From NCBI GenBank assembly GCA_001636495.1, contig KV440964.1, positions 450,666 to 514,665 on the forward strand: a stretch of DNA of 64,000 bases, written 5' to 3'. The position numbers and the translations under genes are program-made. Origin of the DNA: Sutcliffiella horikoshii (lineage in GTDB: Bacteria > Bacillota > Bacilli > Bacillales > Bacillaceae_I). The notes beneath the pieces are model-generated. The model was not told the DNA's origin, did not search any database, and saw nothing but the letters and a program-made list of their open reading frames with translations. Each line of letters begins with the position of its first letter. Positions within the stretch are counted from its first letter, which is position 1. This document shows positions 21,280 to 59,707 of this stretch, one piece after another.

Positions 21280-21416
21280 TTAAACACCGCTGTTGATTTC
21301 CGCAAACGGCTTCGCTTTCCGCGGGGCGACCTTGAGCCTCCTCACTTCGTTGCGGGGTCTCAAGATTGTCGCTACTCCCCCGCTGGAGTCTTCGCCTTTT
21401 GCTCCAATCAACAGCT
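21280..21416 (+). repeat. palindromic intergenic repeat, copy A
   Basis: Starts TTAAACACCG, then inverted termini CTGTTGATT (21290-21298) and AATCAACAG (21406-21414). The inner arm GCGACCTTGAG pairs with CTCAAGATTGTCGC across a CCTCCTC...GGGGTC cap. It lies in the coaX-ftsH gap. It is one of eight related elements in the window. Confidence 0.9.
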
Positions 21417-21481
21417 ATAAACTATTAGAACATTACTTATTCTATTGACTGCAGGTTTGAAACACAAAGCCCAAATCACAT

Positions 21482-21517
21482 AAAAAAGGTGCCTGAATTT
21501 TACTCCAGGCACCTTTT
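21482..21517 (-). terminator. ftsH terminator
   Basis: Minus strand AAAAGGTGCCTG, 10-nt loop, CAGGCACCTTTTTT, starting two bases past the ftsH stop. Confidence 0.92.
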
Positions 21518-21519
21518 GT

Positions 21520-23454
21520 TTATTCAGGCTTGTTTTCGTCTGTAGATTCCGTTTTGTCTGCATCTTTTTTAGAGTTGATGTTCACTTTTACATCTTCGCC
21601 ACCATCAACTTTTAGAGGGAGTTCTGGAAGCTTCCCTTTTTCATATAGGTGTTTGATCTGAGCTGCATCAAGTGTTTCAACCTCTAATAGTGTTTGAGCT
21701 ACGAGCTCTAGCTTATCACGGTTTTCCGTAAGAATCTGCTTGGCTCTCGCATAACACTCTTTGATGAAGCGTTGAATCTCCATATCGATGTCGTGTGCAA
21801 TCGCATCACTGTAGTTTTGCTCATTTTGGATATCACGTCCAAGGAAGACTTGCCCCCCTGAAGCTTGACCAAATTGTAACGGTCCAAGCTTTTCGCTCAT
21901 TCCGTATTCGGTAACCATTTTACGGGCTATTCCTGTTGCACGTTGGAAGTCATTATGGGCACCAGTACTTGCTTCGCCAAATGTGATTTCCTCTGCAACA
22001 CGACCGCCCAGTAGTCCGGTAATCTTATCTAAGAGCTCTGGTTTTGTCATAAAGTAACGATCTTCTTTTGGAAGCATAACCGCATAACCGCCAGCCTGTC
22101 CTCGAGGTACGATTGTCACTTTATGTACCGTATCCGCTTCATCCAATACCACACCGATGATCGTATGACCCGCTTCGTGGTAAGCAACAATATTGCGCTC
22201 TTTTTGGGAAATTACCCTGCTCTTTTTGGCAGGTCCCGCGATAACTCTATCAATTGCTTCATCAACATCCAACATATCGATTTGTTTCTTGTCTCGTCTA
22301 GCAGCAACAAGCGCAGCTTCGTTCAGCAAGTTTTCAAGATCTGCACCCGAGAATCCAGGGGTACGCATCGCAATTGTCTTCATATTGATACTATCATCGA
22401 TAGGTTTATTTCTTGCATGAACTTTCAGTACCGCTTCACGGCCCTTCAAGTCTGGGCGGTCTACAGTAATCTGACGGTCAAAACGACCAGGTCTCAATAA
22501 TGCCGGGTCAAGTATGTCCGGTCTGTTCGTAGCTGCAACGATGATGATACCTTCGTTCGCTCCGAAACCGTCCATTTCCACTAGCAACTGGTTCAAGGTT
22601 TGCTCACGCTCATCGTGACCTCCACCTAGACCCGCTCCACGTTGACGTCCTACTGCATCAATTTCATCGATGAAAATGATACATGGAGCATTTTTCTTCG
22701 CATTTTCAAAAAGGTCACGTACACGGGATGCACCTACCCCAACGAACATTTCCACAAAGTCAGAACCACTGATTGAGAAGAACGGAACGCCCGCTTCCCC
22801 AGCAACAGCTCTTGCAAGTAACGTTTTACCTGTACCTGGAGGTCCCACAAGGAGTACCCCTTTAGGAATTCGCGCACCAAGCTCAGAGAATTTACGTGGA
22901 TCTTTCAAGAATTCCACAACCTCGACAAGCTCCTGCTTTTCCTCATCCGCACCGGCAACGTCTTTGAATTTAACCTTTTTCTTCTCTTCACTGTATAACT
23001 TCGCCTTACTCTTACCAAAGTTCATCACACGACTTCCGCCGCCCTGCGCCTGATTAAGTAAGAAGAAGAATAAAATAAAGATGATGACAAAAGGAATGAT
23101 GGAAGTAAAGAAGGTTACCCAACCGCTCGTTTCTTCCGCCGGGTCAACTGTCATTTGAATGTTCTGCTCTTCTGCAATGGTTTCCACGCGATCTAGAGCA
23201 CTGGCACTGTTAGGGAACACCGTTACAAACGTTTCTCCTTCAGCAGCACCTTCTAATTTACCACGCGCTTCATAGACGGAACGCGTTGGTTGGATGGTGA
23301 ATTCCTTCACCTTATTTTCTTCAAGATTCTGGATGAATGTATTATAGGTGATCGGTTTCTCGCTCGTGTTAGGGCTATTGAAAAAGCTCACAACACCAAT
23401 GACCACTAAAAATATTAATAAATAAAAGATGGTATTACGAAATATTCTGTTCAT
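21520..23454 (-). CDS. ftsH: ATP-dependent membrane zinc metalloprotease FtsH
   Basis: Hexameric AAA+ protease that extracts and degrades membrane and regulatory proteins. The 644 residues hold two membrane helices (about 7-25 and 113-133) flanking an extracytoplasmic loop. Then come Walker A GPPGTGKT (204-211), Walker B IIFIDEID (259-266), the RPGRFDRQI sensor region and the zinc site HEAGH (426-430). The tail is acidic. In B. subtilis it is stress-induced and needed for sporulation. Confidence 0.98.
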
Positions 23455-23489
23455 CCCTTACCTCCTCCCACGATAGCCAAACTAAACCA

Positions 23490-23519
23490 ATAGTAACATA
23501 GTAAATTAATCCAATTCAA
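23490..23519 (-). promoter_or_regulatory. ftsH promoter
   Basis: -35 TTGAAT (23514-23519), 18 nt, extended -10 TGTTACTAT ending at 23490. It lies between hprT and ftsH, allowing separate expression. Confidence 0.6.
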
Positions 23520-23539
23520 GGAATCTGTATTGGGATAGC

Positions 23540-24088
23540 TTATTCTTCTACGTTAGAATAAATTGCAGGTTTTAATACTCCGATATACGGAAGGTTACGA
23601 TATTTTTCTGCGTAATCAAGACCATATCCTACAACAAATTCATCTGGTACGATGAATCCAACATAGTCAGCTTTAATATCTGCTTTTCTTCCACTTGGTT
23701 TGTCAAGTAGTGTCACAATCTTGATGGATTTCGCTTTACGATAGCGGAATAGTTCCACCAGGTAGCTTAGAGTCAAGCCGCTGTCGATGATGTCCTCGAT
23801 GATCAGGATATCCCTTCCTTCAACGGAAGTGTCCAAATCTTTCAGGATTTTCACTTCACCGGAAGAAACAGTGGAGTTTCCGTAGCTTGATACGTCCATG
23901 AAATCCATTTCCAAATATGTATCCATGCGTTTGATAAGGTCTCCCATGAATGGCATGGCGCCTTTTAGCACTCCAATTGCCAAAGGAAAACGATCACTGT
24001 AATCCTCTGTTAATTGTGCACCTAATTCTCTTACTTTTACTTGAAGCTCTTCTTCGCTAAAGAGTACTTTTTCGATATCTTTGTTCAT
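23540..24088 (-). CDS. hprT: hypoxanthine-guanine phosphoribosyltransferase
   Basis: Purine salvage enzyme. The 182 residues contain the PRPP loop [15 protein letters not shown] and the purine-contact segment near [20 protein letters not shown] at 24088 is chosen: it overlaps the tilS stop as ATGA, has GGGAGG upstream, and begins like the B. subtilis enzyme (MNKDIEKVL). The TTG at 24106 is part of the ribosome site. B. subtilis TilS-HprT are reported to interact and activate ftsH; the adjacency fits. Confidence 0.96.
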
Positions 24089-25506
24089 TTCTTTGTTGCC
24101 TCCCAAACTTTTTGACTCGTCTTGCAGGTTAATACTAAAACAGGACCCATCGTTTCCTCTGTTGCTTCAAAAGTAGAACGTTTAAGCATAGGCATCCACA
24201 AAATTTCATCGTTGGCATCCACAATCAAAGGCCATGTGTTTCGTTGCTGTATAGGTATTTTACCTTCGATGAAAATGCTTTTGATTTTTTTGGAGCCGTT
24301 CATCCCCTTCAGTCTAATTCGATCTCCGTCCAAACGGGTTCTCGCATGAAGCGGAAGTGCAACCTTGGATAAATCAATGACAGCTTGATTTTCTTTGACA
24401 ACTGTTTGTTTATAATGTGTCCAAATCTCGCTTGTGATGATTTTATCGTTTGGCAGCGTCGCATTGCCCGGGACTTCAAGCATACACTTGTACGCATGAT
24501 CGGATTCATCCTTATTAAATGTCAATGTGCATTCATTGTAGGATTTAATAACCTGTAAGCCATTAGGGAAATGCAGCCTTCCAGAAGGGTGTTCACTTTC
24601 CAATAAGGATAATAAATTATCAATATGTATAGAGGAAAGAGATGGAGGAATTTCATTGTTATAGAGATAGTTTAATATTAGTTGAATCCCTCGCCTTTGT
24701 AAAGGTTTAGCCATCAAAAGCACAGGTTTTCTACTCAATACCACTCTATCTTTTGCTTTGCTTCTAATAACGTTATTCCATTCCTTTTTCATTAATGCCT
24801 CTATGTATTGCTCATTCTCCTGTAACTGCTCACTGAATGCCTGGAACTTCTCATGAATATTGGGGAATTCCTCTTTCAGTAAGGGTAAGACATGATGACG
24901 CAAACGATTTCTTCGATAGGCATCCTTGTCATTGCTGGGGTCATGCCTAAATGGAATTTCATGTTGCTTTAGATACTCCATGATTTCCACTTTTGTAATG
25001 GCTAGAAACGGACGGACAATCACTCCATTCCCAAATGCTCGTTTAGGAAGAATTCCGGCGTACCCGGCCATGGATGACCCTCTTCCAAGCCTCATCAGGA
25101 TCGTTTCCACCTGATCATCTCCATGGTGAGCAAGTGCCAATACTTGTGCGCCATGCTTGGCCATCACTCTTTCATAAAAAGCATACCTGCATTGCCTTGC
25201 TGCCATTTGGGGACTGAGCTTCTTTTCACTTTGGTAGGCTGCTACATCGATCTGTTCGGCTTCAAACAGCAGGTTCCTCCATTCACATTGTTGCTGGACA
25301 AACCTCAAATCCTCTTCGGATTCCCGCCCCCGAAACATATGATCCACGTGCGCCACTACTAATTTCAGGCTCTTGGCCTCCTTGATGGAATCCAAATAAT
25401 GAAGCAATCCCATGGAATCTGCTCCACCACTAACGCCAACCACCACAGTCGAATTGCTTGGCAGCATGTCATTTTCATCTATGAAAGTCGAGACAGTTTT
25501 CCACAT
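24085..25506 (-). CDS. tilS: tRNA(Ile)-lysidine synthetase
   Basis: Modifies C34 of the CAU-anticodon tRNA-Ile to lysidine so it reads AUA. The 473 residues have the PP-loop SGGADS at 26-31 and an HVDHMFRG segment, then the [10 protein letters not shown] substrate helix and TilS C-terminal domains. It overlaps hprT by four bases. Essential in B. subtilis. Confidence 0.95.
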
Positions 25507-25648
25507 ACAGTGTACCCATTCCTTTAATCTACGCGTATAATTTCTATTTTATCCTACCATTTGACTTCTTCTCCTGCAAAAATAGATGCTTATCCAAAAA
25601 CATCCATACTGCTTTATACCCCCAAACACAGCCATAAAACGCTATAAA

Positions 25649-26683
25649 CTACATTATCTGACCGTATAAGTAAAAGAAATATGCAAAAAGTATGACGGAT
25701 AAAAGTACAGCGGTCTCCATCCACCCTTTGCTTGTGGTTTTCTGAGGAGCAGATGTTACAGCAGCCCCACCTCGTGCAGTTGCCACTCTGCTTGTTCTTG
25801 TGGAAGAGCTGTTATTGGCCCGCTGACCTCTGTGTTGCTGCGCTGTATCCTGTGAAGCTGGCAAAGTCCGCTGGCTCATGACAGCAAGCATACCGTCTTT
25901 CATCTCTTTTGCAGATTGATATTCTCCTGACAGCGCTCGCGTCAAGACACTCTTATATTTTTTCAACCAAGCATTCTTATCAATATGACCCTCGAGCTGC
26001 TTTAGCCCTCCTTCTCCGTTTTTTTGGAACTGCTTCGGGTAACAAATGTGAATCATGATCATCGCCACAGCGAAAAGGTCATAAGAGGCCTCGGCCCTTC
26101 TGGATCCAAGCCCCCAGTACCCCCTATCAAAAAATTCCGTGAACTCTTTGATGGCCCGGCCCTTGATGGTGGTACCCCCTACATCCAGAAGCCGTACCTT
26201 AGGAGGACTTGCCGTTACAATCAAATTATCCGGCTTCAAATCCCCGAACACCCATCCCTCTTTATGGAGGGTCTCAAGATCTGTCAGTAATTGGAGGGTC
26301 AGAATACCGGCCCACTCCATCCCTCTCTTCTGAACAAAAGAGAGAAGGGGCTCCCCTTCCAGGTATTCCATGACATAGAAGGAGAAAGATTGTTTTCCCC
26401 TCAACTGCTCCCAATCGTCGACATCTAACAAAGAAGGCCCCAGGGAGAACCCTCGGACCTTCGAAAAATGACGCAGGACATTAACCTCAGAAGTAATGGA
26501 CATGCTGTTTTCACTTATTTTCAATGCAGCTAAGCCCTTGGAACTCCTTGTTAGATATACATACCCCGTCGCACCGTAACCGAGCGTTCTGACAATGGTA
26601 TAGCTCTCTTTATGCCATTTTCCGATAATGGTCGTCCCTTGAGGCAGATTACCTACCGGATTCTTCATAGTATTGTTCATCAT
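25649..26683 (-). CDS. yabT: membrane-anchored Ser/Thr protein kinase YabT
   Basis: Hanks-type kinase; in B. subtilis it is made in the forespore, binds DNA and phosphorylates RecA and AbrB. The 344 residues include a glycine loop GYGATGYVYL, the lysine in ALK (K55) and the catalytic loop GDLKPDN (D148, K150, N153) with F where HRD has H-R. The DFG position reads DVGG (D167). The C-terminus is one membrane helix (about 322-342), so the kinase should face the cytoplasm. It overlaps yabS by 35 nt. AbrB is encoded in the same window. Confidence 0.93.
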   Translation of the reverse strand: MMNNTMKNPVGNLPQGTTIIGKWHKESYTIVRTLGYGATGYVYLTRSSKGLAALKISENSMSITSEVNVLRHFSKVRGFSLGPSLLDVDDWEQLRGKQSFSFYVMEYLEGEPLLSFVQKRGMEWAGILTLQLLTDLETLHKEGWVFGDLKPDNLIVTASPPKVRLLDVGGTTIKGRAIKEFTEFFDRGYWGLGSRRAEASYDLFAVAMIMIHICYPKQFQKNGEGGLKQLEGHIDKNAWLKKYKSVLTRALSGEYQSAKEMKDGMLAVMSQRTLPASQDTAQQHRGQRANNSSSTRTSRVATARGGAAVTSAPQKTTSKGWMETAVLLSVILFAYFFYLYGQIM

Positions 26684-27386
26684 CGGAAATCAAGCTCCTT
26701 AGGTTACGCGTTTCTTTAAAATAAGGAATGGCTTCTTGAATGGCAGGACCCGTCGGTGTGATCCCACCTGTCGATAGTTTTGGAAAAATGGTGGACAGCG
26801 ATTCCAGTTTCGGTGTCCAATCCAGGATTTTCTCCACTTCTTGTCGTTTTCCCGGGAAAACAAAGGCTGAAAACTGGTTATCACCAATTCTTGCATTCAA
26901 ACTTAGTGCTAAATCCAAAAGTGCTTCCTTGACGGTTGGAAGCTTGGATTTCATGCTAGCACTAGTATCAACTAGAATCAGCACCTGCAGGGAAACCGTT
27001 TCACCTAATTCATCGACGACTTCCATCACTTCTCCCCGTTTTTCTGGCGGAAGGTCTTCCATGAAAGTGTCAGATCCCAAGATTTGTTGAAGCTCCTTAT
27101 TAATAACCCCCTGTAATGTTTGGGTCATCGCTTTTCTGGTCACCATCTGGACTGTCTGAGATAAGTTCTTAGCATACACAATCTGGCTGACTCCACCACC
27201 AGACATTGCGATTCCCTCTATCTCTTGCATCCCTCTTTCATCTATCGTATCCTCATCCATCACCCCAATAACATTCACTGTAATACCCTGCTCCTTCGCA
27301 AGGGCTGCCATGGCAATTGGGTCGTCCCCTGAATTTGAGCATCCATCTGTAATTAGTAGAATTTGTTTTAACGTTCCTTTATACAC
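26649..27386 (-). CDS. yabS: von Willebrand factor A-type protein YabS
   Basis: Predicted cytoplasmic protein of 245 residues with two VWA-like segments: LLITDGCSNSGDD near the N-terminus and LVDTSASMKS (DTSAS metal-site motif, 140-144). Function is unknown. The pairing with yabT is conserved in Bacillus, and a sporulation role is inferred. It starts at GTG (27386) seven bases after an AGGAGGGG site. Confidence 0.88.
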   Translation of the reverse strand: MYKGTLKQILLITDGCSNSGDDPIAMAALAKEQGITVNVIGVMDEDTIDERGMQEIEGIAMSGGGVSQIVYAKNLSQTVQMVTRKAMTQTLQGVINKELQQILGSDTFMEDLPPEKRGEVMEVVDELGETVSLQVLILVDTSASMKSKLPTVKEALLDLALSLNARIGDNQFSAFVFPGKRQEVEKILDWTPKLESLSTIFPKLSTGGITPTGPAIQEAIPYFKETRNLRSLISDDEQYYEESGR

Positions 27387-27474
27387 GTTTCGTCCCCTCC
27401 TAATGCGTATAATTTACATTAGCCATCATGGACGAGACGGGCTTATTTTATACCTTGTATGCGCAATTTACCTT

Positions 27475-27918
27475 CTAAGATGTATTCACCCAAACCACTT
27501 CCTTTTTGCTAGAAAGAGATAGAGCAAACTTGTATTCTGCCAGTAAATCAATTGGTAATTGTACTAGTTGTCTTATTCGTTCTTTCCCTCCCACTGCTTG
27601 ATTTGGCATCGGTGAAAGCACCTTTTCTTTTCTATTCACACTCATTTCTTTCTTACCTAGTAACAAGTTAACTTGTTTTGCGAGTTTGACGAACATTCTC
27701 CTCATCAAGTCCGGGGCATCGCCTGATTCAATGGTCCCTCTCCCCACCACGATTCCAACATCTTTTTCCATTCTCATCGCTTGTCTCTCCGCCTTGAATA
27801 CCGGACTCGTTGCAAGCACACCCACTTGATTGCATTCCGTTTCGTTCTCCTCGATCACACGACGGACACCCATTTCTTTCACAAGACCAGTTACCATTTT
27901 AGATAAAATTTTCAACAA
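27475..27918 (-). CDS. unrecognised 147-residue protein translationally coupled to spoIIE
   Basis: I do not recognise this gene, and B. subtilis as I recall it has none here. The frame starts TTG-TTG directly after the spoIIE TAA, eight bases downstream of a perfect AAGGAGG inside the spoIIE C-terminal codons, so reinitiation is likely. The protein is mixed charged/hydrophobic with no signal peptide or membrane helix. A central VGIVVGRGTIESGDAP stretch could form strand-turn-helix, and one Cys (C29) is present. Codon use resembles the neighbours. It ends 88 nt before yabS. Sporulation expression is inferred from context only. Confidence 0.65.
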   Translation of the reverse strand: MLKILSKMVTGLVKEMGVRRVIEENETECNQVGVLATSPVFKAERQAMRMEKDVGIVVGRGTIESGDAPDLMRRMFVKLAKQVNLLLGKKEMSVNRKEKVLSPMPNQAVGGKERIRQLVQLPIDLLAEYKFALSLSSKKEVVWVNTS

Positions 27919-30405
27919 TTAAAGCGCCTCCTTCATCCCTTGGTTTTTGGATAAATAGTGATAGGCAGGAATGGCTGCCCATTTCGGAATATTCCTCTCT
28001 ATCTTTGCTACCACAACCGTCATATCGTCCTGGATTTGCCCTGATCTTGTGCGGATAACCTCCTCCATAATGATATCTGCCACCTCTTGCGGATCATCCG
28101 TCCTGATTTCGGATACCTTCCGCTTCATCCATAAATCATAGTTTTCTACATGCTTTGGTCCTTCAAAAATTCCGTCGCTCATCATAATCAGCAAGTCACC
28201 AGCTTTCAACTGGGAACTAACGACGTCCACATCGAATTCTTCAATGATTCCCATCGGTAGATTACTTGCTTCAATTTTGATTACCTTATCTCCCCTTTTC
28301 ACAAAACTTGGAGTCGAACCGACTTTTAAAAACTTTGCAGAAGCATCTTGCAGATCGATCATCGCTAGATCGAGTGTTGTGAAAATCTCATCGGTCGTCC
28401 TTAATGATAGGACCGAATTGACCGACTTGATTGCCACCTTCTCCTTAATTCCGGATTGTAAAATCTCTTGAAGCAGCTTTAATGTTTCTTTGCTTTCATA
28501 GTGCGCGCGCTCGCCATTTCCCATTCCGTCACTGATGGCAATGGCGTATTTCCCATGACCTAACTCTATGGTGGAATAACTATCTCCTGATATCAGTCCC
28601 CCTCCTTTTGCGGCATGTGCAACGCCTGTGTCGACTACAAACGCTTTTGCTGAGCCGAAAGATACATGACAGTAACCATTATTATCAACATTGCATTCTT
28701 CCTTTTTCACGATGATGTTCTCATGCAATATATCTGAAAGCATCGGGGCAATGAGTTTCTCGCACTCACCACGCCCTTCACAGTAAGGAACGGTCATTTC
28801 AATATCGACATTCCCCTGCTCGACGCTGTATATTTCCACTTGTTCTATTTCAATCCCGAATGCTTGGAGGGCGTCCAAAATCTGATCTTCTTGAACATAG
28901 TGATTCTCCCTCTCCCGCTGAATCTCTCTTGCAAAATCCTCCATTACCTGTGAAACTCCCATTAATTGATCAGCTACCAGCCTCCTACTCTCCATTAATT
29001 GTTTTTTCAGCTTTTCACTCGCGTGGAACTGGGCTAGCTCGTTTTTGATCACGGTTTTTACCTTTTCCGATTTTACGCAATGGCGATCCCACTCCTTCTG
29101 TAGTTTGACATTCAAGCTGATGGTCCCTTCCTCTGTATCCTCCATTAAATGAGTCATATAATCATATGTTTTCTGGAAATTTTGTGTCCAGCACTGCTCC
29201 TTCTTAAAGCAATTTTGACACGTCTTCTCTGTTACATTGCTCAAGAAAAGATCCACTTCCTTTTCTGAGCTGGGATGTTCAAACTGGAACTTCGAGAAAC
29301 TATTAGAAAGCGCCTGGAAAACGTGTGAAAATTGTTCCACTCTATTTGCTGTAACATCACGAATCTTCCGCATATATTGCTGCTGCTCCGCTGTATATTC
29401 GGCTGTTCCTGGAATGGACTTAGCCAGGTTGGCTATCGCTTTTTGCGGTGTCAGTAAAAGAAGGGCAACAGCGATCAAAGATTCCATAATGGTAGGTACA
29501 AGCAGCGTCATCCCCTCCCCATAAATGCCGATAAGTAATGTGCCTAGAAGCAGTCCCACCGATACGCCAAGCTTGTTCCCTTCCCGCAGTAGCCCTCCCA
29601 ACAGACCCGCAAATGCCAGCAAGCTCATCTGATATAAATTGGAAACAGTCGCCAAGCTTAAAATAAGTCCTGTCACCACTCCAACGGTAGATCCGATCGT
29701 CGCCCCCGCCACAAATGCGAAAATCAACACGAGATAACGCGATAATATATGCTCAATAGAGAGATCATAAGCTGTCCAACCTATGGTTCCGGTCAGTACA
29801 GATGCTAGCAAGATAATGAGGCAGATGATTTCTTCCGTTTTAAAAGCATGTCTCTTTTTTCTCATGGTAATAAGCGGAAGGCTCTGGAAGAAGATGAGCG
29901 TCAGGATGAATCCAAGCCCTGCCTCCACACCGATCATCAGCCAATCATAGGTGACAATGCCAGTTGTAAAATACATCATCGTCGTCTTCGACAGAAAGGC
30001 CGATGCAAATACCAGAAACGGTATCGATTTTAGCGGCTCTATTTTTAGTGCCCTCGCCCATTTGAAAAGAAGAACAAACAGTATCATCCCGCCTAGTACG
30101 TATGCTGCCGTTAAAGCGGATATGGTCGCCGATCCGATCATTAAGGCCAACAGCGTAAGACCCGCCCGATTCTTTTTCATGAAATATACGGCTGCGAAAA
30201 ACGGTAACGCAAAAGGTGTTATCTCATTCAGGATCAAAGCTCGTCCAAGCAAAAATCCGATAAAGACTAAAAGAAATCCTTGGTGAAAAAGTATCATCGT
30301 AAGCTTTGTCTTAGTCGAGTGAATCGACTTCATGAACGTTGTTCTGAGTTTTCCCAACTGAACATTGGAAACCGGCTCCCCCATATCCCTTTCTAGTCCC
30401 TGCAT
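27919..30405 (-). CDS. spoIIE: stage II sporulation protein E, membrane phosphatase
   Basis: PP2C phosphatase at the polar septum that dephosphorylates SpoIIAA to release SigF in the forespore and contacts FtsZ. The 828 residues comprise about ten N-terminal membrane helices (to ~330), a central regulatory helical region with CQNC (C...KEQC) cysteines, and the C-terminal phosphatase with GGLISGDSYS, ISDGMGNGERA and MMSDGIFEGP metal-site motifs. ATG at 30405 follows GGGAG by eight bases; the ATG at 30420 lacks a ribosome site. Confidence 0.97.
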   Translation of the reverse strand: MQGLERDMGEPVSNVQLGKLRTTFMKSIHSTKTKLTMILFHQGFLLVFIGFLLGRALILNEITPFALPFFAAVYFMKKNRAGLTLLALMIGSATISALTAAYVLGGMILFVLLFKWARALKIEPLKSIPFLVFASAFLSKTTMMYFTTGIVTYDWLMIGVEAGLGFILTLIFFQSLPLITMRKKRHAFKTEEIICLIILLASVLTGTIGWTAYDLSIEHILSRYLVLIFAFVAGATIGSTVGVVTGLILSLATVSNLYQMSLLAFAGLLGGLLREGNKLGVSVGLLLGTLLIGIYGEGMTLLVPTIMESLIAVALLLLTPQKAIANLAKSIPGTAEYTAEQQQYMRKIRDVTANRVEQFSHVFQALSNSFSKFQFEHPSSEKEVDLFLSNVTEKTCQNCFKKEQCWTQNFQKTYDYMTHLMEDTEEGTISLNVKLQKEWDRHCVKSEKVKTVIKNELAQFHASEKLKKQLMESRRLVADQLMGVSQVMEDFAREIQRERENHYVQEDQILDALQAFGIEIEQVEIYSVEQGNVDIEMTVPYCEGRGECEKLIAPMLSDILHENIIVKKEECNVDNNGYCHVSFGSAKAFVVDTGVAHAAKGGGLISGDSYSTIELGHGKYAIAISDGMGNGERAHYESKETLKLLQEILQSGIKEKVAIKSVNSVLSLRTTDEIFTTLDLAMIDLQDASAKFLKVGSTPSFVKRGDKVIKIEASNLPMGIIEEFDVDVVSSQLKAGDLLIMMSDGIFEGPKHVENYDLWMKRKVSEIRTDDPQEVADIIMEEVIRTRSGQIQDDMTVVVAKIERNIPKWAAIPAYHYLSKNQGMKEAL

Positions 30406-30438
30406 GATATCCACTCCCATATTTTATCTATTGGGGTC

Positions 30439-30504
30439 ATTATACAAGCTGAAAAGGAAAAGATTTGTCAAACGAACCCATCTGAAGAGGAGAAAAGTTC
30501 GACT
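30439..30504 (-). promoter_or_regulatory. spoIIE Spo0A-dependent SigA promoter
   Basis: Perfect -35 TTGACA (30466-30471) and perfect -10 TATAAT (30439-30444) separated by 21 bp, the over-long spacing known for Spo0A-activated spoIIE and spoIIG promoters. A 0A-box-like TTTGACA overlaps the -35, and AGTCGAA (30498-30504, 6/7 to TGTCGAA) lies upstream. Confidence 0.88.
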
Positions 30505-30634
30505 TATTACAAGGAAAAGAGGGAAAAGCTGTCACGAAATCATCCCATTTGCTAATCCCTCTCATCAGTTTTTGTAAATTCTAAAGGTAATACCGAGGAT
30601 AATGTTCTAATTTTTCTTACATTTTTAAAATGTA

Positions 30635-30663
30635 TTGACATATGTTTGATAAGTTAGTATGAT
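30635..30663 (+). promoter_or_regulatory. promoter of the tRNA-Met/tRNA-Glu unit
   Basis: TTGACA (30635-30640), 17 nt, TATGAT (30658-30663) on the plus strand, divergent from spoIIE. Confidence 0.88.
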
Positions 30664-30669
30664 AACTCT

Positions 30670-30916: not shown

Positions 30917-30925
30917 ACTTTATAA

Positions 30926-30997: not shown

Positions 30998-31007
30998 TAA
31001 TAATAAT

Positions 31008-31056: not shown

Positions 31057-31103
31057 GTGTTGTGATTTCTTTTAAAGGATGTGTTTATGCTAGAAAGTCT
31101 TCT

Positions 31104-31240
31104 AGATGTTGATTGGAGCAAAAGGCGAAGACTCCAGCGGGGGAGTAGCGACAATCTTGAGACCCCGCAACGAAGTGAGGAGGCTCAAGGTCGCCCCGCG
31201 GAAAGCGAAGCCATTTGCGGAAAGCAACATCGGTGCTTAA
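31104..31240 (-). repeat. palindromic intergenic repeat, copy B (inverted orientation)
   Basis: Same element as copy A but on the other strand. Read on the minus strand it starts TTAAGCACCG, with termini ATGTTG and CAACAT. Both sides changed relative to copy A, so pairing is kept. The core is nearly identical to copy A. It lies between the tRNA terminator and the yabR terminator. Confidence 0.9.
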
Positions 31241-33594: not shown

Positions 33595-33731
33595 TTAAAC
33601 ACCGCTGGTGATTTCCGCACTAGGCTTCGCTTTCCACGGGGCACTTGCGGAGCCTCCTCGGCAAGCCTGCGGGGTCTCCGCTAAGTGCTACCTCCCGTAG
33701 GAGTCTTCGCCATGTGCTTCAACCACCAGCT
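33595..33731 (+). repeat. palindromic intergenic repeat, copy C (divergent core)
   Basis: TTAAACACCG start; termini CTGGTG/CACCAG, compensated relative to copy A. The core arms GCACTTGCGGAG and CTCCGCTAAGTGC differ from copy A on both sides but still pair, and the apex GGCAAGCC is also self-complementary. It lies between yabN and rqcP. Confidence 0.9.
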
Positions 33732-33767
33732 GGGTTATCTGAATATTGACAGAGAACCTTCATACAT

Positions 33768-44162: not shown

Positions 44163-44218
44163 GATATCTTGAACCCTCCGCTAGGTTTATTTATTGGCTA
44201 CTTTAGTTGAAAACTCTG

Positions 44219-44262
44219 TAAACACCGCTGTTGATTTCCGCACTGGGCTTCAATCAACAGCT
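44219..44262 (+). repeat. palindromic intergenic repeat, copy D (internally deleted remnant)
   Basis: Keeps the TAAACACCG start, both termini CTGTTGATT and AATCAACAG, and GCACTGGGCTTC, but lacks about 95 bp of core. The junction falls at GCTTC, a pentamer present on both flanks of the missing part in full copies. It lies between prs and glmU. Confidence 0.88.
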
Positions 44263-44286
44263 GCAAAACTCTCTGAAACAGTTGAT

Positions 44287-46170: not shown

Positions 46171-46174
46171 TCTT

Positions 46175-48832: not shown

Positions 48833-48973
48833 TTAAGCACCGCTGTTGATTTCCACAAAAGGCTGCGCTTTCCGCGGGGCGACCTTGAGCCTCCTCGGGC
48901 TGCGCCCTGCGGGGTCTCAAGATTGTCGCTACCTCCCCGCAGGAGTCTTCGCCTTTTGCTCCAATCACCAGCT
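48833..48973 (+). repeat. palindromic intergenic repeat, copy E
   Basis: TTAAGCACCG start; termini CTGTTGATT and ATCACCAG with one unpaired position. Core as in copy A (GCGACCTTGAG/CTCAAGATTGTCGC) but the apex is GGGC-TGC-GCCC, a different yet perfect small hairpin. It lies between sspF and veg. Confidence 0.9.
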
Positions 48974-49014
48974 GGGATATTTTTAGGCAAAATAAAAAGC
49001 AGCAAACAAATTGT

Positions 49015-50433: not shown

Positions 50434-50562
50434 CTTTTTCCCTCCAACTGGGAGAAGGCATTTACCCCAACGGTCTATCTAACCTAGAGTATGCAGGATG
50501 TTTGAGGTGTGTGAGCATTTTCCATTGGCTAGAGAAGGTTGATATGCTATAAGAAAAACCGG

Positions 50563-50600
50563 GCAAAAAACCTAATAATTTTAGTTGTTAGGTTTTTTGC
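50563..50600. terminator. bidirectional terminator-like hairpin
   Basis: GCAAAAAACCTAA-12 nt-TTAGGTTTTTTGC, a perfect 13-bp inverted repeat with T-runs on both strands, directly against repeat copy F. Confidence 0.8.
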
Positions 50601-50601
50601 C

Positions 50602-50728
50602 GCTGTTGATTTCCACAAACGGCTTCGCTTTCCGCGGGAGGAAGGGACAGGTGAGACCCCTGAAGCGGTGTGAGGAGGCTCACGGACCGCCCGCAGGCAA
50701 GCGAAGCGCCTGGAACGGAAATCAACAG
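50602..50728. repeat. palindromic intergenic repeat, copy F (variant subtype)
   Basis: Same termini (CTGTTGATTTCC at the left, GGAAATCAACAG at the right, a perfect 12-bp pair) and the GGCTTCGCTTTCCGCGGG arm. The middle is in the opposite sense: GTGAGACCCC...GGAGGCTCAC. It lies between two terminators downstream of ksgA. Confidence 0.88.
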
Positions 50729-50742
50729 AATCATAAATCATA

Positions 50743-51653
<911 letters not shown>

Positions 51654-52208
51654 TTATTGCTCCTCCTGGTCTATTTTCGTCAATGCGTGTTTTAATCGCT
51701 CCAAGGAGATATGGAACATCTGCAGCCTTTTTTGCAACTGCTTGCCGTTTGTATAGCCAATGTTCAACTCCATGCCTAATCGCTCTCTTCTTGCCTTGGA
51801 TTTAGGACCGGCAACCAGTCCATAGTAAACAAGCGCTTCAAACGGGATTTCTTCCGTTTCCTGTTCATATTCCTGATGCAATCCTTCGAGTGCCTGTTGA
51901 ATATCTTTTACTGAAGCATGCTCCACGCCGATTCCTTTTCCGTTTTTGCCACGGGCCTTATCCTTTGGCAAAAAGGCATGCTTGCAACCAGGAACAGCTT
52001 GTCTGATGGTATGACGGATCTTTTCACCGGGATAGTCCGGGTCTGTGAATACAATGACCCCTCTTGTATCCTGCGCATGCTTGATCCGGCTCAGGATCTC
52101 TTCATTGATGGCAGAACCACCTGTTTCAATGGTATCTGCGTCCACTGCCCGTTTTATGGCGACTGTATCATCTTTTCCTTCCACCACGATAATTTCTTTT
52201 ATTTTCAT
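51654..52208 (-). CDS. rnmV: ribonuclease M5
   Basis: Matures 5S rRNA. The 184 residues start with a Toprim domain (VVEGKDD with catalytic Glu, TDPDYPGEK) and have a C-terminal 5S/ L18-recognition region. ATG at 52208 is used; the TTG at 52220 is within TTGGAGG, its ribosome site. It pairs with ksgA in the conserved order. Confidence 0.95.
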   Translation of the reverse strand: MKIKEIIVVEGKDDTVAIKRAVDADTIETGGSAINEEILSRIKHAQDTRGVIVFTDPDYPGEKIRHTIRQAVPGCKHAFLPKDKARGKNGKGIGVEHASVKDIQQALEGLHQEYEQETEEIPFEALVYYGLVAGPKSKARRERLGMELNIGYTNGKQLQKRLQMFHISLERLKHALTKIDQEEQ

Positions 52209-52343
52209 TTTTTCCTCCAAAAAGGTGAAACTTTTCTTCTATGATAAACGTCTAATTGTTGAAAAGAAAATCAAAAAACAAACAATAGTATGTATTCTAC
52301 TTTATTTTGTCTTTCTTGACTAATATTTATTTTATTTTAACAG

Positions 52344-52373
52344 AAAAAAGCAGAGGCTAAAAACCCCTGCTAA
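52344..52373 (-). terminator. yabE terminator
   Basis: AGCAGGGG-loop-CCTCTGCT followed by TTTTTTC. Confidence 0.9.
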
Positions 52374-52386
52374 GTCAACTATCAAT

Positions 52387-53607
52387 TTAGTCTAGAATCT
52401 TGATTTTCACTTTTTTCCTTCCCCAACGATAAGCAGCGTCCTTATCTGAGAAGAATACATCAATCTTGTGCCCTTTGATGGCACCACCGGTATCTCCAGC
52501 AACAGCATAGCCATAGCCTTCCACATATACTTTTGTTCCTAAAGGAATGACACTAGGGTCTACTGCAATTACTTTTGCTCCAGGATTAGATCGTAAATCA
52601 ATTCCCGTACTCGTCACACCACTGCATCCATTACAGTAAGCTGTGTATGCCGTAGAGGAAACATAGAATTCCTTGGAGCTTGATTCCGTACTACGTGACA
52701 CGACCTGTTGAGGTTGTGGTGTAGGTTGTGGTGGTGGCGGAGCTTTTGTTCCGACAGCAACGATGCGATCTAAGGATTCTTTCACCGTCTCTGTTTTCAC
52801 CAATTCACGAGATACTTCTTTGCCGTTCTCTAAGATAACTTCATAATGATTGGCAACGGTCCCTTCTTGACCTTGCTGGACCACTTGCTCCTTCCCTTTG
52901 TCGAGGGAATCATCATTTTTTGTTACAACACCAAATTCAATAGGCTCTTCCACTACATCGGTGACTTTTTCAACTCTAGTAATATTTACTACAGAATCTT
53001 TTGCTACCAATTCTTCTAAACTAGGCTCCACTCGGTCAAGATCATTTACTGTGATATCGTGCTGTTCTAAAAAGTCAGCGACCGTAGTCGAAGTAGACCA
53101 TACTTGTTGCTTTTTCCCACCTACCTTCAAGGTAACTTCAAATGCCTTCTTGATGGCAATGATTAAATCATCCTTGATTGGGGTATTTAAACTTTGACTT
53201 ACCTTATCGTGCTCTTGTATATCTATATCTTCTTCTGCTAAGAATTCTTGTACTGTCTCTGCTGTCGTAAAGATGGAGCGCTCCTTATCATCAATGACAA
53301 GTTTCACTTCTTTCGCCGGATCCCAGACAATCTGCATGGCGTCACTGACCACGGTATCCTTTGAAGGTTCCAATCGATCCTCAGGATGGACTTTAATGTC
53401 CAGCTCTTTCAGAATATCCGCTACAGTTTTTGCGTGCGTGCGCACCGTGACTTCCTCACCGTCCACATTCACTGTTACAGCAGCCTTTGTGCCATGGAAG
53501 ACACCAAAGCCAAGTATAGTTGAAAAGACTATGAAACTAGTAATAACCATCGCCAGTTTCGTCTTGCTCAACGAACCAGAAAACAGTTTTTTCATGCTAT
53601 CTAACAT
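52387..53607 (-). CDS. yabE: cell-wall protein YabE (Rpf-like; DUF348, G5 and 3D domains)
   Basis: Predicted secreted or membrane-anchored cell-wall hydrolase related to resuscitation-promoting factors. The 406 residues have an N-terminal signal/anchor (about 13-33), three DUF348 repeats (VNVDGEEVTVRTHAKTVADI type), a G5 domain (VVTKNDDSLDKGKEQVVQQG) and a C-terminal 3D domain with DPSVIPLGT, GDTGGAIKG and DVFF. ATG at 53607 follows AAGGAGG; the track to 53715 is non-homologous. Confidence 0.94.
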   Translation of the reverse strand: MLDSMKKLFSGSLSKTKLAMVITSFIVFSTILGFGVFHGTKAAVTVNVDGEEVTVRTHAKTVADILKELDIKVHPEDRLEPSKDTVVSDAMQIVWDPAKEVKLVIDDKERSIFTTAETVQEFLAEEDIDIQEHDKVSQSLNTPIKDDLIIAIKKAFEVTLKVGGKKQQVWSTSTTVADFLEQHDITVNDLDRVEPSLEELVAKDSVVNITRVEKVTDVVEEPIEFGVVTKNDDSLDKGKEQVVQQGQEGTVANHYEVILENGKEVSRELVKTETVKESLDRIVAVGTKAPPPPQPTPQPQQVVSRSTESSSKEFYVSSTAYTAYCNGCSGVTSTGIDLRSNPGAKVIAVDPSVIPLGTKVYVEGYGYAVAGDTGGAIKGHKIDVFFSDKDAAYRWGRKKVKIKILD

Positions 53608-53831
53608 GTAAAAAAACGCCTCCTTCTCCTCGAATGGATTATATAGACAGTTATGTAACTTGTCAACCCTTTCCATCAGCTTGACCGTAATGTCTATTAT
53701 GCAGAAAATTCTCACAAAAGGGAAGTGAAAACTATCGACACGATTATCCTATGAAGAGAAGAAGATAGGTAGAACTTATTTGTTTTCACTCGAATTTGGA
53801 CAAGTATCAGCGATTTTTGACATATTTCTTG

Positions 53832-54599
53832 TCAGTTTATGCCGAATAATTTCTTGGCATTTGCTGTTGTTTTTTCTGCTATTTCCTCTACCGTTACATT
53901 TTTCAATTCCGCCACCTGTTCCGCCACGAGCCGTACATATGCCGGTTCATTTCTTTTTCCACGATATGGATGTGGAGTCAAGTACGGGCAGTCCGTTTCT
54001 ATAAGAAGCATGTCCATCGGAATCTCCTTCACCACTTCTTTCGGCTTTTTAGCATTCTTGAAGGTGACCGGTCCTCCGAACGAAATGTAGAAGTTCATCT
54101 CCATACATTCCTTTGCCACTTCCAAACTTCCCGTGAAGCAATGCATGATGCCTCCTACTTCCTTAGCGTCTTCTTCCTTAAGGATTTCCACCACATCAGC
54201 CGTCGCGTCCCTGTTATGAATGACGATTGGTAGCTTCACCTTTTTCGCCAATCGGATTTGCTTACGGAATACCTCTTTTTGCACATCTTTCGGGGATTTA
54301 TCCCAATGATAATCAAGGCCCATCTCCCCGATTGCCACGACCTTCTCATGAGAAGCAAGGTCTTCAATCCAAGCTAAATCCTCATCTGTCATGTCAATCG
54401 CATCTACTGGATGCCAGCCTACCGCAGCATAAAGAAAATCATATTTCTCCACAAGTTCCATTGCCCGGTTTATCGTTTTACGGTCAAATCCTACTACTAC
54501 CATGTTGTCTACTTTATCCTTACGAGCCCTATCAATTACTTCTTCGAGATCTTCCTCATACTGATCCGCATTCAAATGGACGTGTGTATCAAATAACAT
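53832..54599 (-). CDS. yabD: TatD-family metal-dependent DNase YabD
   Basis: A 255-residue TIM-barrel nuclease with metal ligands H6 and H8 in DTHVHLN, GEMGLDYHW, the HNRDA histidine, HCFTGS and ETDCPYL. The length equals B. subtilis. ATG at 54599 follows AGGAG by eight bases. It lies between metG and yabE. Confidence 0.95.
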   Translation of the reverse strand: MLFDTHVHLNADQYEEDLEEVIDRARKDKVDNMVVVGFDRKTINRAMELVEKYDFLYAAVGWHPVDAIDMTDEDLAWIEDLASHEKVVAIGEMGLDYHWDKSPKDVQKEVFRKQIRLAKKVKLPIVIHNRDATADVVEILKEEDAKEVGGIMHCFTGSLEVAKECMEMNFYISFGGPVTFKNAKKPKEVVKEIPMDMLLIETDCPYLTPHPYRGKRNEPAYVRLVAEQVAELKNVTVEEIAEKTTANAKKLFGIN

Positions 54600-54685
54600 A
54601 TGTAACACTCCTAAAAAATTTTTTAAAATATATCTCCTTGTAATCCTTTTCTTAAAATAATATAAACAAATAATATATTGATAAA

Positions 54686-54732
54686 GAAACAAAGAGGTGC
54701 AACCCGTTGTTACACGTGAAACACCTCTTTTA
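54686..54732 (-). terminator. metG terminator
   Basis: AAAGAGGTG...CACCTCTTTG with a long CACGTG-containing loop and a T-rich tail. Confidence 0.8.
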
Positions 54733-54760
54733 TTATAAAATTATTTTATCCATAAACTAA

Positions 54761-56758
<1,998 letters not shown>

Positions 56759-56790
56759 TTACCTCCCTATAATCGAAACATATAAAAGTA

Positions 56791-56816
56791 GAAAACTCCC
56801 GCCCGATGGACGAGAG
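56791..56816 (-). other. attenuator-like hairpin in the metG leader
   Basis: Minus strand CTCTCGTCC-ATC-GGGCGGGAG followed by TTTTC, a 9-bp stem inside the 5' leader. No T-box motif (AGGGTGGNACCGCG) or SAM-box is visible. Confidence 0.55.
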
Positions 56817-56874
56817 CGATGAGCGTTTACCTTCTAAATATATATATGAACATCATAACCTATTTTTTATAACT

Positions 56875-56904
56875 ATTATACATGGTTTGGCCCGGTATTG
56901 TTAA
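56875..56904 (-). promoter_or_regulatory. metG promoter
   Basis: -35 TTAACA (56899-56904), 18 nt, -10 TATAAT (56875-56880), giving a leader of about 115 nt. Confidence 0.68.
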
Positions 56905-56980
56905 GGATTGAACAAAAACTTTTTCTCTTCTCCTATGAATTCCATTCTCCATCCATTCCACCATCCTTCCAATCGACATT

Positions 56981-57034
56981 TGTCGAAAAATATGTCGAAT
57001 AAACAGTTGAAATTTGTCGAATTATGATTATAAT
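56981..57034 (+). promoter_or_regulatory. upstream abrB promoter with three Spo0A boxes
   Basis: Three perfect TGTCGAA boxes (56981-56987, 56993-56999, 57015-57021). The third falls between TTGAAA (57007-57012) and TATAAT (57029-57034), 16 nt apart, so Spo0A binding would block this promoter. Confidence 0.7.
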
Positions 57035-57177
57035 TAGACTTGTATTCTATTGAAAATTAGTAATTTATTGTAAATGTTAACCAGATACCAATTCCGGTAA
57101 ACCCTTATTACAAAGCAGTTTCTCCGCTTTTGGAATACATTTTTTAAAAGAAATACAAATATTTTCAAACATAATTG

Positions 57178-57239
57178 TTGACGGATTTTGTAAATGTTGT
57201 TATGATTAAATCACGTTAGATTTGTCGAATAATGACGAA
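57178..57239 (+). promoter_or_regulatory. proximal abrB promoter with Spo0A boxes
   Basis: TTGACG (57178-57183), 17 nt, TATGAT (57201-57206), then TGTCGAA (57223-57229) and TGACGAA (57233-57239) downstream of the start, the arrangement known for Spo0A repression of B. subtilis abrB. Confidence 0.85.
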
Positions 57240-57294
57240 AATGATAGATTAATAATATTAAATAATTTTAATTTGAGAGAGGGGTATTTTTCTT

Positions 57295-57576
57295 ATGAAA
57301 TCTACTGGTATTGTACGTAAAGTTGACGAGTTAGGCCGCGTGGTTATTCCTATCGAGCTTCGCAGAACGTTAGGAATCGCTGAGAAAGATGCTTTAGAAA
57401 TCTACGTTGATGACGAAAAGATCATCTTGAAAAAATACAAGCCAAACATGACTTGCCAAGTTACTGGTGAAGTATCTGACCACAACCTAACACTTGCTGA
57501 TGGAAAAATCATCTTAAGCCGTGAAGGTGCAGAAAAAATCATCCAAGAGATCCAAAACAACTTGCAAGCAAAGTAA
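57295..57576 (+). CDS. abrB: transition-state regulator AbrB
   Basis: A 93-residue regulator repressing stationary-phase genes during growth. The N-terminal DNA-binding domain (MKSTGIVRKVDELGRVVIPI, ELRRTLGIAEKDALEIYVD) is near-identical to B. subtilis; a C-terminal multimerisation part follows with one Cys in MTCQVTG. It is the only protein gene on the plus strand, opposite the fork direction if synteny holds. YabT and Spo0A sites link it to sporulation. Confidence 0.98.
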   Translation: MKSTGIVRKVDELGRVVIPIELRRTLGIAEKDALEIYVDDEKIILKKYKPNMTCQVTGEVSDHNLTLADGKIILSREGAEKIIQEIQNNLQAK

Positions 57577-57587
57577 TATATGACACA

Positions 57588-57619
57588 CAAAAGAGGGTGC
57601 TGCTGCACCCTCTTTTTTA
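57588..57619 (+). terminator. abrB terminator
   Basis: AAGAGGGTGC-TGCT-GCACCCTCTTTTTT, a near-perfect stem with T-run. Confidence 0.93.
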
Positions 57620-57649
57620 TTTGCGAATTAATTTTATAGTCTCGTTCAA

Positions 57650-57783
57650 CTCCTGTAGATTTCCGTTCCAGGTATTCGCTTTCCGCGGGACGGTGGTTGA
57701 GCCTCCTCACTTCGTTCCGGGGTCTCAACCAACCGTTACTCCCCCGCTGGAGTCTCATACCTTGCACTACAATCTACAGGGAG
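57650..57783 (+). repeat. palindromic intergenic repeat, copy G
   Basis: Termini CTCCTGTAGATT and AATCTACAGGGAG: the T-to-A change in the left end (CTGTAG) is matched on the right (CTACAG). Core arms CGGTGGTTGAG/CTCAACCAACCG also change together relative to copy A. It lies between the convergent abrB and rsmI genes. Confidence 0.9.
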
Positions 57784-57793
57784 AATTTCAGTA

Positions 57794-58675
57794 CTATTCA
57801 ACGTGAAATGCTTGGTAGACTTCTCTCTTTGGTAAGTTACGCTCTTTGGAGACTAGCTTGATTGCTTCTTTGGAGGAACAGTCTTCTGACTCCATTACTT
57901 GTTGCACGTGCTCCAAAACGGTTAGGTCTTTCCACCACGTGCTTTCTTCTTCTTGCTCTTCTGAACTGTTTCCTTCTATTATAATGCAACATTCCCCTTT
58001 GATGCCTTGTTCTTCGTACAGGGCCAGTACATCAGAGATATTACCTCGTGTGAACTCTTCGAATTTTTTCGTGAGCTCTCTGCTCACTACGATGGATCTG
58101 TCACCAAGTATCTCATGCATCAAGCTGAGTGTATCCTTCAGACGGTGAGGCGATTCGTAGAGAATAAATGTATCTGTGAACTTTTTCAGTCGTTCGAGCT
58201 CTTTTTTCTTTTCTTTTTTCTGACGATCAAGAAAGCCATAGAAATAAAATGGCTGTGAGACGACTCCTGACGCAATTAATGCCGTCAATGCTGCGTTTGC
58301 TCCTGGTAAAGGAACGACATACAGCTTTTCTTGGAGCGCTTCCACCACTATTTCATAGCCAGGATCTGAGATGGAAGGCATGCCAGCATCACTTACCAGG
58401 CCAATGTCCTTGCCATCTTTTAAAAGATCGATTATTTTTCTGCCGCTCTGTTCTTTGTTGTGTTCGTGATAACTGATAAGGGGAGTAGTTATCTCAAAGT
58501 AGTTACAAAGTTTTTTGGTGTTTCGTGTATCTTCTGCTGCAATAAAGGCTACTTCTTTTAACATCCTTAGGGAACGGTAGGTGATGTCTTCTAAGTTTCC
58601 GATGGGTGTTGGAATCAGGTAAAGTCTACCTTGACTGTATGAGTCGCTAAAGCTTTTTTGTTGCCATAAATCCAT
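57794..58675 (-). CDS. rsmI: 16S rRNA (cytidine1402-2'-O)-methyltransferase
   Basis: SAM-dependent methylase (YabC in B. subtilis) of 293 residues in the tetrapyrrole-methylase fold. LIPTPIGNLEDITYRSLRML opens the domain; AEDTRNT, GLVSDAGMPSISDPG and PLPGANAALTALIASG follow. It lies directly after yabB, with yazA missing between them. Confidence 0.95.
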   Translation of the reverse strand: MDLWQQKSFSDSYSQGRLYLIPTPIGNLEDITYRSLRMLKEVAFIAAEDTRNTKKLCNYFEITTPLISYHEHNKEQSGRKIIDLLKDGKDIGLVSDAGMPSISDPGYEIVVEALQEKLYVVPLPGANAALTALIASGVVSQPFYFYGFLDRQKKEKKKELERLKKFTDTFILYESPHRLKDTLSLMHEILGDRSIVVSRELTKKFEEFTRGNISDVLALYEEQGIKGECCIIIEGNSSEEQEEESTWWKDLTVLEHVQQVMESEDCSSKEAIKLVSKERNLPKREVYQAFHVE

Positions 58676-58715
58676 ATGAATCCCTCATTTTTATTAGACT
58701 ACTTAGGTTGTTACG

Positions 58716-59477
58716 TTAACTTCCGTTGACTTCCGCAAAGAGCATCTTTCTTACTTCAGGGGTGTATTCGCCATTCTCATCATATACAAGCAGGGGCGGA
58801 AGGATTTTTAAGTCGGGGTTTCCATCCTTAATTCCTTCTATTAAAAGTGTATTGGCCGGCTTGCCGAGTTTGGAATGGACAAATTGAAGACGCTTCGGCT
58901 CAAGTCGGTATTTTCTCATCAAGGTTACAATATCCAGCAGCCTGCCCGGTCGATGTACGAATGCCACCTTCCCGCCCTGCTTTGCAACATGGCTGCTGAC
59001 ACGGACGACGTCTTCTAAAGTGCATTCTATTTCATGCCTTGCAATGGCATAGTGCATGTTACTATTTATTTTTTCTTCCTTCTCTGCTAAAGGAAAATAC
59101 GGCGGATTACATGTCACCACATCGTATTTTTTATTTCCAAGCATGGCGGGCAGGTCCTTTAAATCATCGTTCATAATACTCAAACGATCTGCCAGTCCGT
59201 TATAGTCAATGCTTCTCTGCGCCATATTAGCAAGACGCTCTTGTATTTCCACGCCAATGATGGAGCCTTTCGTTCGTTTACTTAACAATAAGGGGATAAT
59301 CCCATTGCCAGTACAGAGATCCATGATATTGCCCTTTTGTATCGGAACATAAGCAAACTGTGCTAACAGAACAGCATCTAAGGAAAAAGAAAAAACAGAT
59401 GGACTCTGTATAATCCGTAAATTCTCCGCCAATAAATAATCGAGCCGCTCATCACCGATAAGATCTACCTCTACCAT
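58716..59477 (-). CDS. yabB: TrmN6-like SAM-dependent methyltransferase YabB
   Basis: Predicted tRNA1(Val) A37-N6 methyltransferase. The 253 residues show motif I ([15 protein letters not shown]), IGVEIQE, and the N6-adenine catalytic motif NPPYF. The tRNA target is inferred from E. coli YfiC. It lies between yabA and rsmI. Confidence 0.9.
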
Positions 59478-59570
59478 CTAACAAAACCCTTTCGTACCAT
59501 AATCTTTCCCTATTATAACGCAAGTTTTATGAAAAACATAAGAGGCCAGTAAGATTATATTTAGGCTCTG

Positions 59571-59707
59571 TTAATCGCCGCTTTTGATTTACGCACTGGG
59601 CTTCGCTTTCCGCGGGGCGGTGCTTGAGCCTCCTCACTTCGTTGCGGGGTCTCAAGTCTACCGCTACCTCCCGCTGGAGTCTTCGCCCTGTGCTACAATC
59701 AAAAGCT
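59571..59707 (+). repeat. palindromic intergenic repeat, copy H
   Basis: Starts TTAATCGCCG; termini CTTTTGATT and AATCAAAAG, again changed on both sides. Core GCGGTGCTTGAG/CTCAAGTCTACCGC. It lies between yabA and yabB. Confidence 0.9.

Follow-up and report, generated by a model that had tools for sequence, protein, structure and literature searches.

The stretch of Sutcliffiella horikoshii DNA analysed here (64,000 nucleotides of contig KV440964.1, positions 450,666 to 514,665; hereafter the window) contains eight copies of an intergenic palindromic repeat, and the best overall explanation, which we regard as highly probable, is that they are decayed non-autonomous miniature transposons of the IS1595 type whose folded core is shared with an IS1182-family insertion sequence and whose fold has been kept. 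The family consists of copies, some old and others young, of a very small, non-coding mobile element, present in dozens to hundreds of copies per genome in many Bacillus relatives. A sequence-only reading of the window had described a covarying palindrome family and missed the terminal repeats and target duplications that mark its members as miniature transposons, as well as their likely IS1595-type parent.

Members with both ends intact span 176-188 bp from GGCTCTGTTAAA to TTTAACAGAGCC, enclose a long imperfect hairpin and carry no transposase of their own. Among 130 instances of the core, the left terminal repeat was recognized in 30, the right in 20 and both in 16 (at most 2 mismatches). 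An A/T-rich target duplication of 8 bp is perfect in 8 of the 16 two-ended copies and matches at 7 of 8 positions in 2 more, whereas pairing the flanks of different copies as a control gave perfect agreement in 0% (none of 2,000 pairings) and agreement at 7 of 8 positions in 3.5%; half of the 16 copies had been fetched by their end pattern, and the other eight include four perfect duplications. Perfect duplications come from three families of the order (genomes G010 and G012, G033, and G039), and the GGCTCTGTTAAA ends themselves occur in the genus of the window as well as in G033 and G039 of other families. Sampling from the ends instead of the core led back to the same element, with a core match (E up to 0.01) at 10 of 13 GGCTYTGTTAAAGTT sites taken from the 26 listed in G010. 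With terminal inverted repeats, a target duplication and no transposase, the repeats are miniature inverted-repeat transposable elements (MITEs), that is, non-autonomous DDE elements.

The same ends bound a 2,204-bp element on a Pontibacillus plasmid that carries an exact duplication (ATTCGAAA), an IS1595 transposase (NF033547, E 7.1e-62) and passenger genes, which points to an IS1595-type transposase as the likely mover of the repeats; since this element has the ends and lacks the core, the ends would belong to IS1595-type transposons and the core would be their cargo. Four observations weigh against this attribution. First, there is no core match within the 2,204-bp element, so that only the ends are shared. 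Second, a search of seven genomes for the IS1595 domain PF12762 found none in the genome of the window (G000) or in G010, G013, G012 and G009. Third, an IS1595 element in G014 fails as a parent, its ends (GCCTGTTTTC...) differing from GGCTCTGTTAAA. Fourth, both terminal repeats are preserved in none of the window copies. Because no IS1595 domain was found in G000, spread in that genome may have stopped. Other candidates for the source were also rejected. The IS1595 candidate in G016 has no GGCTCTGTTAAA-like pair near its PF12762 match, and ISL3 (PF01610), present in two genomes of the genus, shows no such ends at the three of nine loci examined. A 1,166-bp mobile insertion cassette in G009 (L278:2551-3716), with which the search that reached the Pontibacillus element was made, is bounded by GGCTCTGTTAAA ends with an exact duplication of 8 bp (TTTCATTT) but encloses a GNAT-like open reading frame and a Nudix-like fragment (both named by eye) in place of a transposase.

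Comparison of flanking sequences revealed a second group of terminal repeats, GAGGCCACTGAAAAA, beside the GGCTCTGTTAAA group. In the genome of the window, nine GAGGCCACTGAAAAA end pairs span 216-222 bp, and no IS1182-family transposase of the kind described next was found there. Among the matches listed, GAGGCCACTGAAAAA pairs enclose an IS1182-family transposase in seven elements, five of exactly 1,864 bp in G013 and the others of 1,875 bp (G012) and 1,687 bp (G005), the IS1182 family model having been run on two of the seven. All seven are flanked by direct repeats of 8-9 bp. The folded core lies between the left end and the transposase gene in the 1,864- and 1,875-bp forms and is lacking from the 1,687-bp form. 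When the flanks of each element were joined, a core copy spanned the junction at six of the seven listed sites (at five over nearly its whole length, at one, L217, over about half), the 1,687-bp element being the exception. The IS1182 element thus carries the core and inserts into the hairpin loop of other copies, and the repeats are therefore both its passenger and its landing site: the folded core is common to two transposon families and the target of one of them. At L217-L222, IS1182-family elements sit within the loop of a palindromic copy and themselves bear the same palindrome, and MITE derivatives nest likewise (for example at L058). A 1,943-bp pair of IS1182-type ends in G012 was discarded as a single element, as it encloses no transposase and its flanks differ; it represents two separate MITEs.

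The family is widespread. A covariance-model search of this genome and its relatives, which the sequence-only reading had proposed as a check, revealed a high-copy family well in excess of chance. The model, R1, built from 15 copies, gave at least 150 matches in G000 (one copy used as a BLAST query gave 50). Among 40 other genomes in the order, 34 contained matches: all 15 in the same genus, both of the 2 others in the family and 17 of 23 in other families. Re-searching 12 of these 17 with laxer filters returned from 2 to at least 150 matches each. The MetRS of the window shares 95% identity with its S. horikoshii counterpart, which places the window in a Sutcliffiella genome; the nearest genomes compared are 88% identical to that of the window in MetRS gene DNA. 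Copy A of the window also matches five plasmid records, from Priestia, Bacillus badius and Niallia. Within 400 kb sampled from the Sutcliffiella genome there were 28 copies, one of them cut by the edge, or about one per 14 kb; the earlier figure of one copy per ~5 kb is right for the 21-60 kb segment but not for the whole window, where 8 copies in 64 kb amount to a little under twice the genome average. The copies had been said to lie only between genes, and indeed none of the eight in the window overlaps a gene and copies elsewhere in the genome are nearly always intergenic: 0 of 27 overlap in the 400-kb sample, and 2 of 27 among the best-scoring copies outside the window, a count that leaves out three top copies within it (a simpler gene caller gave 1 of 35). 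Gene context was assigned with a codon-bias gene caller written for this analysis, and copies not flanked by called genes on both sides (4 of 27 in the own-genome count, 9 of 32 in another set) were left unassigned.

The fold has been maintained while its sequence changed. When 15 copies were aligned with MAFFT and not fitted to the model, double changes occurred in 18 of 40 pairs. In a model-guided alignment of 117 copies, drawn from 72 sources and comprising the matches with E up to 1e-9, 92.6% of pairing cells hold, against 39.6-51.5% with the arms slid, and 32 of the 40 pairs show a double change; for 32 distinct copies from other families of the order the corresponding values are 93.8% and 24 of 40. 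That the changes in the two arms are matched, as the sequence-only reading had proposed, is real and exceeds shared descent: on a FastTree tree of the 117 copies with parsimony states, both partners changed on ~103 branches, where 17 were expected and re-matched columns gave 14-15 (at most 35 in any single re-matching), and ~90 of these branches keep a standard pair, against 4-5 in the re-matched controls (largest 26). The family thus shows covariation beyond phylogeny, as a structured RNA family does. Two points tell against placing full weight on these numbers. The alignments of the 117 copies and of the other families were fitted to the model structure and so lean towards it, and a stricter all-pairs test resembling R-scape, the check proposed by the sequence-only reading, gave E < 0.05 in just 1 of 40 pairs (and in 0 of 9,413 other pairs), with a heavy-tailed permutation null and gaps counted as states. 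The innermost hairpin, CGCTTTCCGCGGG..GAGCCTCCTC..GGGGTCTC..GGAGTC, is nearly invariant across families of the order, and around this unchanged inner core the outer arms in other families have quite different sequences that still pair.

In the window, six copies are full: A (21280..21421, plus strand; 164.1 bits), with the flank TTAAACACCG; B (31099..31240, minus strand; 156.3 bits); C (33595..33736, plus); E (48833..48978, plus); G (57643..57786, plus), of type 2 with GATTTCCGTTCCAGG arms; and H (59571..59712, plus), of type 1. All six were located with the covariance model and score 127.6-164.1 bits with R1, values that are circular because these copies were among its training set. Copy D (44218..44267, plus; 37.4 bits) is a 50-bp remnant from which the centre of the palindrome has been deleted. 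Copy F (50596..50738, minus), as read from its sequence, is a chimera whose left arm is that of a type-1 copy and whose core and right arm come from a type-3 copy in reverse, and R1 matches it on both strands (70.5 and 39.6 bits). The sequence-only reading had all eight positions right, with D as the remnant, but its seven full copies become six, given the chimeric nature of F; the terminal pairs that it listed, including the single mismatch of E, agree with our own inspection of the sequence. A near-perfect left terminal repeat survives among the window copies in H alone (GGCTCTGTTAATC, 59564..59576, plus, equivalent to G000:C1:510229-510241; 1 mismatch to GGCTCTGTTAAAC). Deletion of the palindrome centre leaving just the ends, a sign of hairpin instability, is seen in D and also at L267:2477-2534 (58 bp) and L265. 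Inverted pairs composed of a type-1 copy, a spacer and a reversed type-3 copy recur at L046, L170:15272-15602 and L183:5333-5667, resembling composite repeats that move or convert together, and a second small hairpin module (TCGCACGAAGAAAATGCG..CATTTTCGAGGAGTCT) takes the place of part of the right arm at L160:4363, L173:8895 and L176:4999, in two genomes. Within the 16S rRNA gene, positions 9129-9158 match 33686-33715 of copy C at 87% over 30 nt around GACTCCTACGGGAGG, probably as a convergent small hairpin. Just downstream of the 5S rRNA gene, at positions 4404-4493, a 20-bp unit (TCCGCCAACTTTTTGTTTTA-like) occurs four times in overlapping register, with a related stretch at 13380.

Sites can be old while the sequences that occupy them are young. 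A copy in the same orientation lies at site E in all 9 close relatives, and none of the 3 outgroups has a match there. Site D, a remnant in the window, holds full copies in G001, G012 and G013 and has no match in G015. Site H carries an oppositely oriented match in 8 of 9 relatives (two of these scoring just 29-35 bits), and in one relative a copy in the same orientation lies inside an IS1182-type MITE. With dispersed paralogs, copies A and B share 97-98% identity (A with its three best paralogs 97-98%, and B with A 97%), compared with at most 81% for orthologs, and 40 and 42 of 64 paralogs, respectively, surpass the best ortholog; these identities cover only the orthologs present in that alignment. 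For E, G and H the corresponding numbers of paralogs are 2, 1 and 4, and C is true to its locus (0.98 over the core to the G013 ortholog; best paralog 0.90). Because A and B are nearer to paralogs than to orthologs, the copies appear to have been homogenized, and the combination of old sites with many young sequences suggests gene conversion among dispersed copies; recurrent insertion into the same positions is a less likely explanation.

Several causes may account for the kept fold. Of the causes that the sequence-only reading had offered for the matched arms (a folded RNA, a cruciform, or repair copying between arms), maintenance of a fold holds, repair copying is disfavoured as the main cause, and the evidence between RNA and cruciform is mixed. 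From the comparative patterns, we hold that a folded nucleic acid is probably under selection, RNA being somewhat more likely than a DNA-level site acting in cis. A distinct and stronger interpretation is that the repeat is first of all a functional structured RNA, a regulatory or stabilizing element in untranslated regions for which mobility would be a mere means of spread; we regard this as tenable, if on balance somewhat improbable. In its favour, pair-keeping changes lie far above the re-matched controls and the inner motif is nearly invariant across families. Copies between tandem genes are also preferentially antisense, 32 to 11 in the genome of the window (P = 0.002), 24 to 12 in four relatives with many sites in common with it, and 11 to 2 (P = 0.02) in other families; the comparison that gave the last of these counts and the opposing one below used 32 of 34 matches of one set and 14 of 18 of another. 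Single-sided changes in the 117 copies, read on the model strand, yield A-C 64 times and G-T 27 times, as though G-U were tolerated on the strand commonly transcribed. However, a set from G010, G012, G014 and G015, mostly fetched by an intact end, is oriented 0 antisense to 8 sense, and the other-family set has no wobble asymmetry (14 versus 15, counted as cells and not as tree events). Moreover, by a per-column estimate, G>A changes are frequent in unpaired columns too, so that part of the A-C/G-T bias may be mutational; two consensus G-T pairs favour the opposite strand; and Rfam gives only rRNA and tRNA for the whole window at the gathering threshold and nothing for copy A at E up to 1. The mutational bias, the 0-to-8 set and the missing asymmetry in other families weaken the argument from orientation and wobble.

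Alternatively, the hairpin may be a DNA-level site in cis, required for transposition or recognized by a transposase as a cruciform or single-stranded hairpin, so that only copies retaining it would spread; we consider this possible but unlikely. Consistent with such a role, the same inner core is found in copies with complete ends and perfect duplications from three families, the outer arms vary between copies and yet pair, and the hairpin loop is targeted by IS1182 elements. The putative parent transposon, however, lacks the core, DDE transposases of the IS1595 kind usually require just the ends, and the fold is still kept at old sites. Arm-to-arm copying, in which template switching within the palindrome would match the arms without selection, is improbable. 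It would yield pair-specific double changes, and F does show recombination between arms of different copies, but a near-fixed C-T mismatch at columns 71 and 103 (99 and 100% of the 117 copies) and non-complementary loop columns (38-43, at 94-99%, opposite 137-139, at 91-94%) persist, which disfavours such copying as the main cause, and on the tree 187 pair breaks stand against 50 repairs. Ordinary intrinsic terminators, or repetitive extragenic palindromes (REPs) mobilized by REP-associated tyrosine transposases (RAYTs), are very improbable: although the repeats are palindromes between genes, and a terminator-like hairpin adjoins some of them (by eye, at site G), no T-run follows either palindrome end in the window copies (by eye), homologous copies at many sites form one family, as the sequence-only reading had maintained, and RAYT elements are not known to have the 8-bp duplications and DDE-type ends present here.

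Under the preferred reading of decayed IS1595-type miniature transposons, we propose that an IS1595-family transposase would cut and insert the miniature elements in trans. An IS1182-family element has also taken up the core, between its left end and its transposase gene, and elements of this type enter the hairpin loop of other copies with duplications of 8-9 bp. Once a copy is in place its terminal repeats decay, whereas sites persist across species divergence, and many copies are closer to others in the same genome than to their orthologs, probably through gene conversion. The fold may be kept as a needed structured nucleic acid, most probably an RNA hairpin co-transcribed with neighbouring genes that makes insertion tolerable or protects transcripts, and this is the step of which we are least sure. 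More speculatively, and with less than even expectation, the core may be a module of ~75 nt, a structured RNA or hairpin present throughout the order, that unrelated transposons (IS1595-type MITEs and an IS1182 element) carry as cargo, that has been copied to hundreds of intergenic sites per genome and homogenized, and is kept for an effect on transcripts or the chromosome while offering IS1182 a safe landing site.

High-copy folded MITEs are a known kind of element. In the parts of the literature drawn on here, bacterial MITEs include bcr1, NEMIS, RUP and ERIC (PMC3733652), and bcr1 folds (PMC2267715); like the present family, such elements are described as short and non-coding, with terminal inverted repeats, often beside genes and in some cases folded. 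The present family differs from bcr1-type MITEs in its ends, a separation made by description and not by sequence, and from known MITEs in its occurrence in 17 of 23 genomes outside its own family, its nearly invariant inner core and the sharing of that core with an IS1182 element that uses its loop as a target. Bhal-1 and Bhal-2 of B. halodurans (36 and 50 copies of 74-76 bp in the passages concerned; PMC2267715) are likewise stem-loop repeats in a related genus; they differ in length by description, and overlap with the inner core is possible. REPs and bacterial interspersed mosaic elements resemble the family as high-copy extragenic palindromes with recurrent inverted pairs (as at L046, L170 and L183) and differ from it, since this family has DDE-type terminal repeats and target duplications. 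Compared with IS1595 transposons carrying passengers, the family has the terminal repeats of the Pontibacillus element and an 8-bp duplication but lacks a transposase and has a folded core that the Pontibacillus element does not. IS1272, of the IS1182 family, is described as choosing inverted repeats and replacing a stem-loop without duplication (PMC5678879); stem-loops are targets in both cases, whereas the present insertion sequence makes an 8-9 bp duplication on entering the loop and bears the same palindrome inside itself. No description of the family was found in the literature covered (titles, abstract starts and passages, with core strings also searched as letters; most subscription papers fell outside this scope), and within it four things appear to be new: the family itself, its ends of the IS1595 type, the way in which IS1182 shares and exploits it, and its distribution over the order. 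A likely mover, boundaries and a target duplication can now be named for a very abundant repeat of the Bacillaceae and their kin, and a family with hundreds of copies in some genomes offers a clear case for asking why small bacterial transposons keep a folded interior, be it for RNA function, transposition or recombination.

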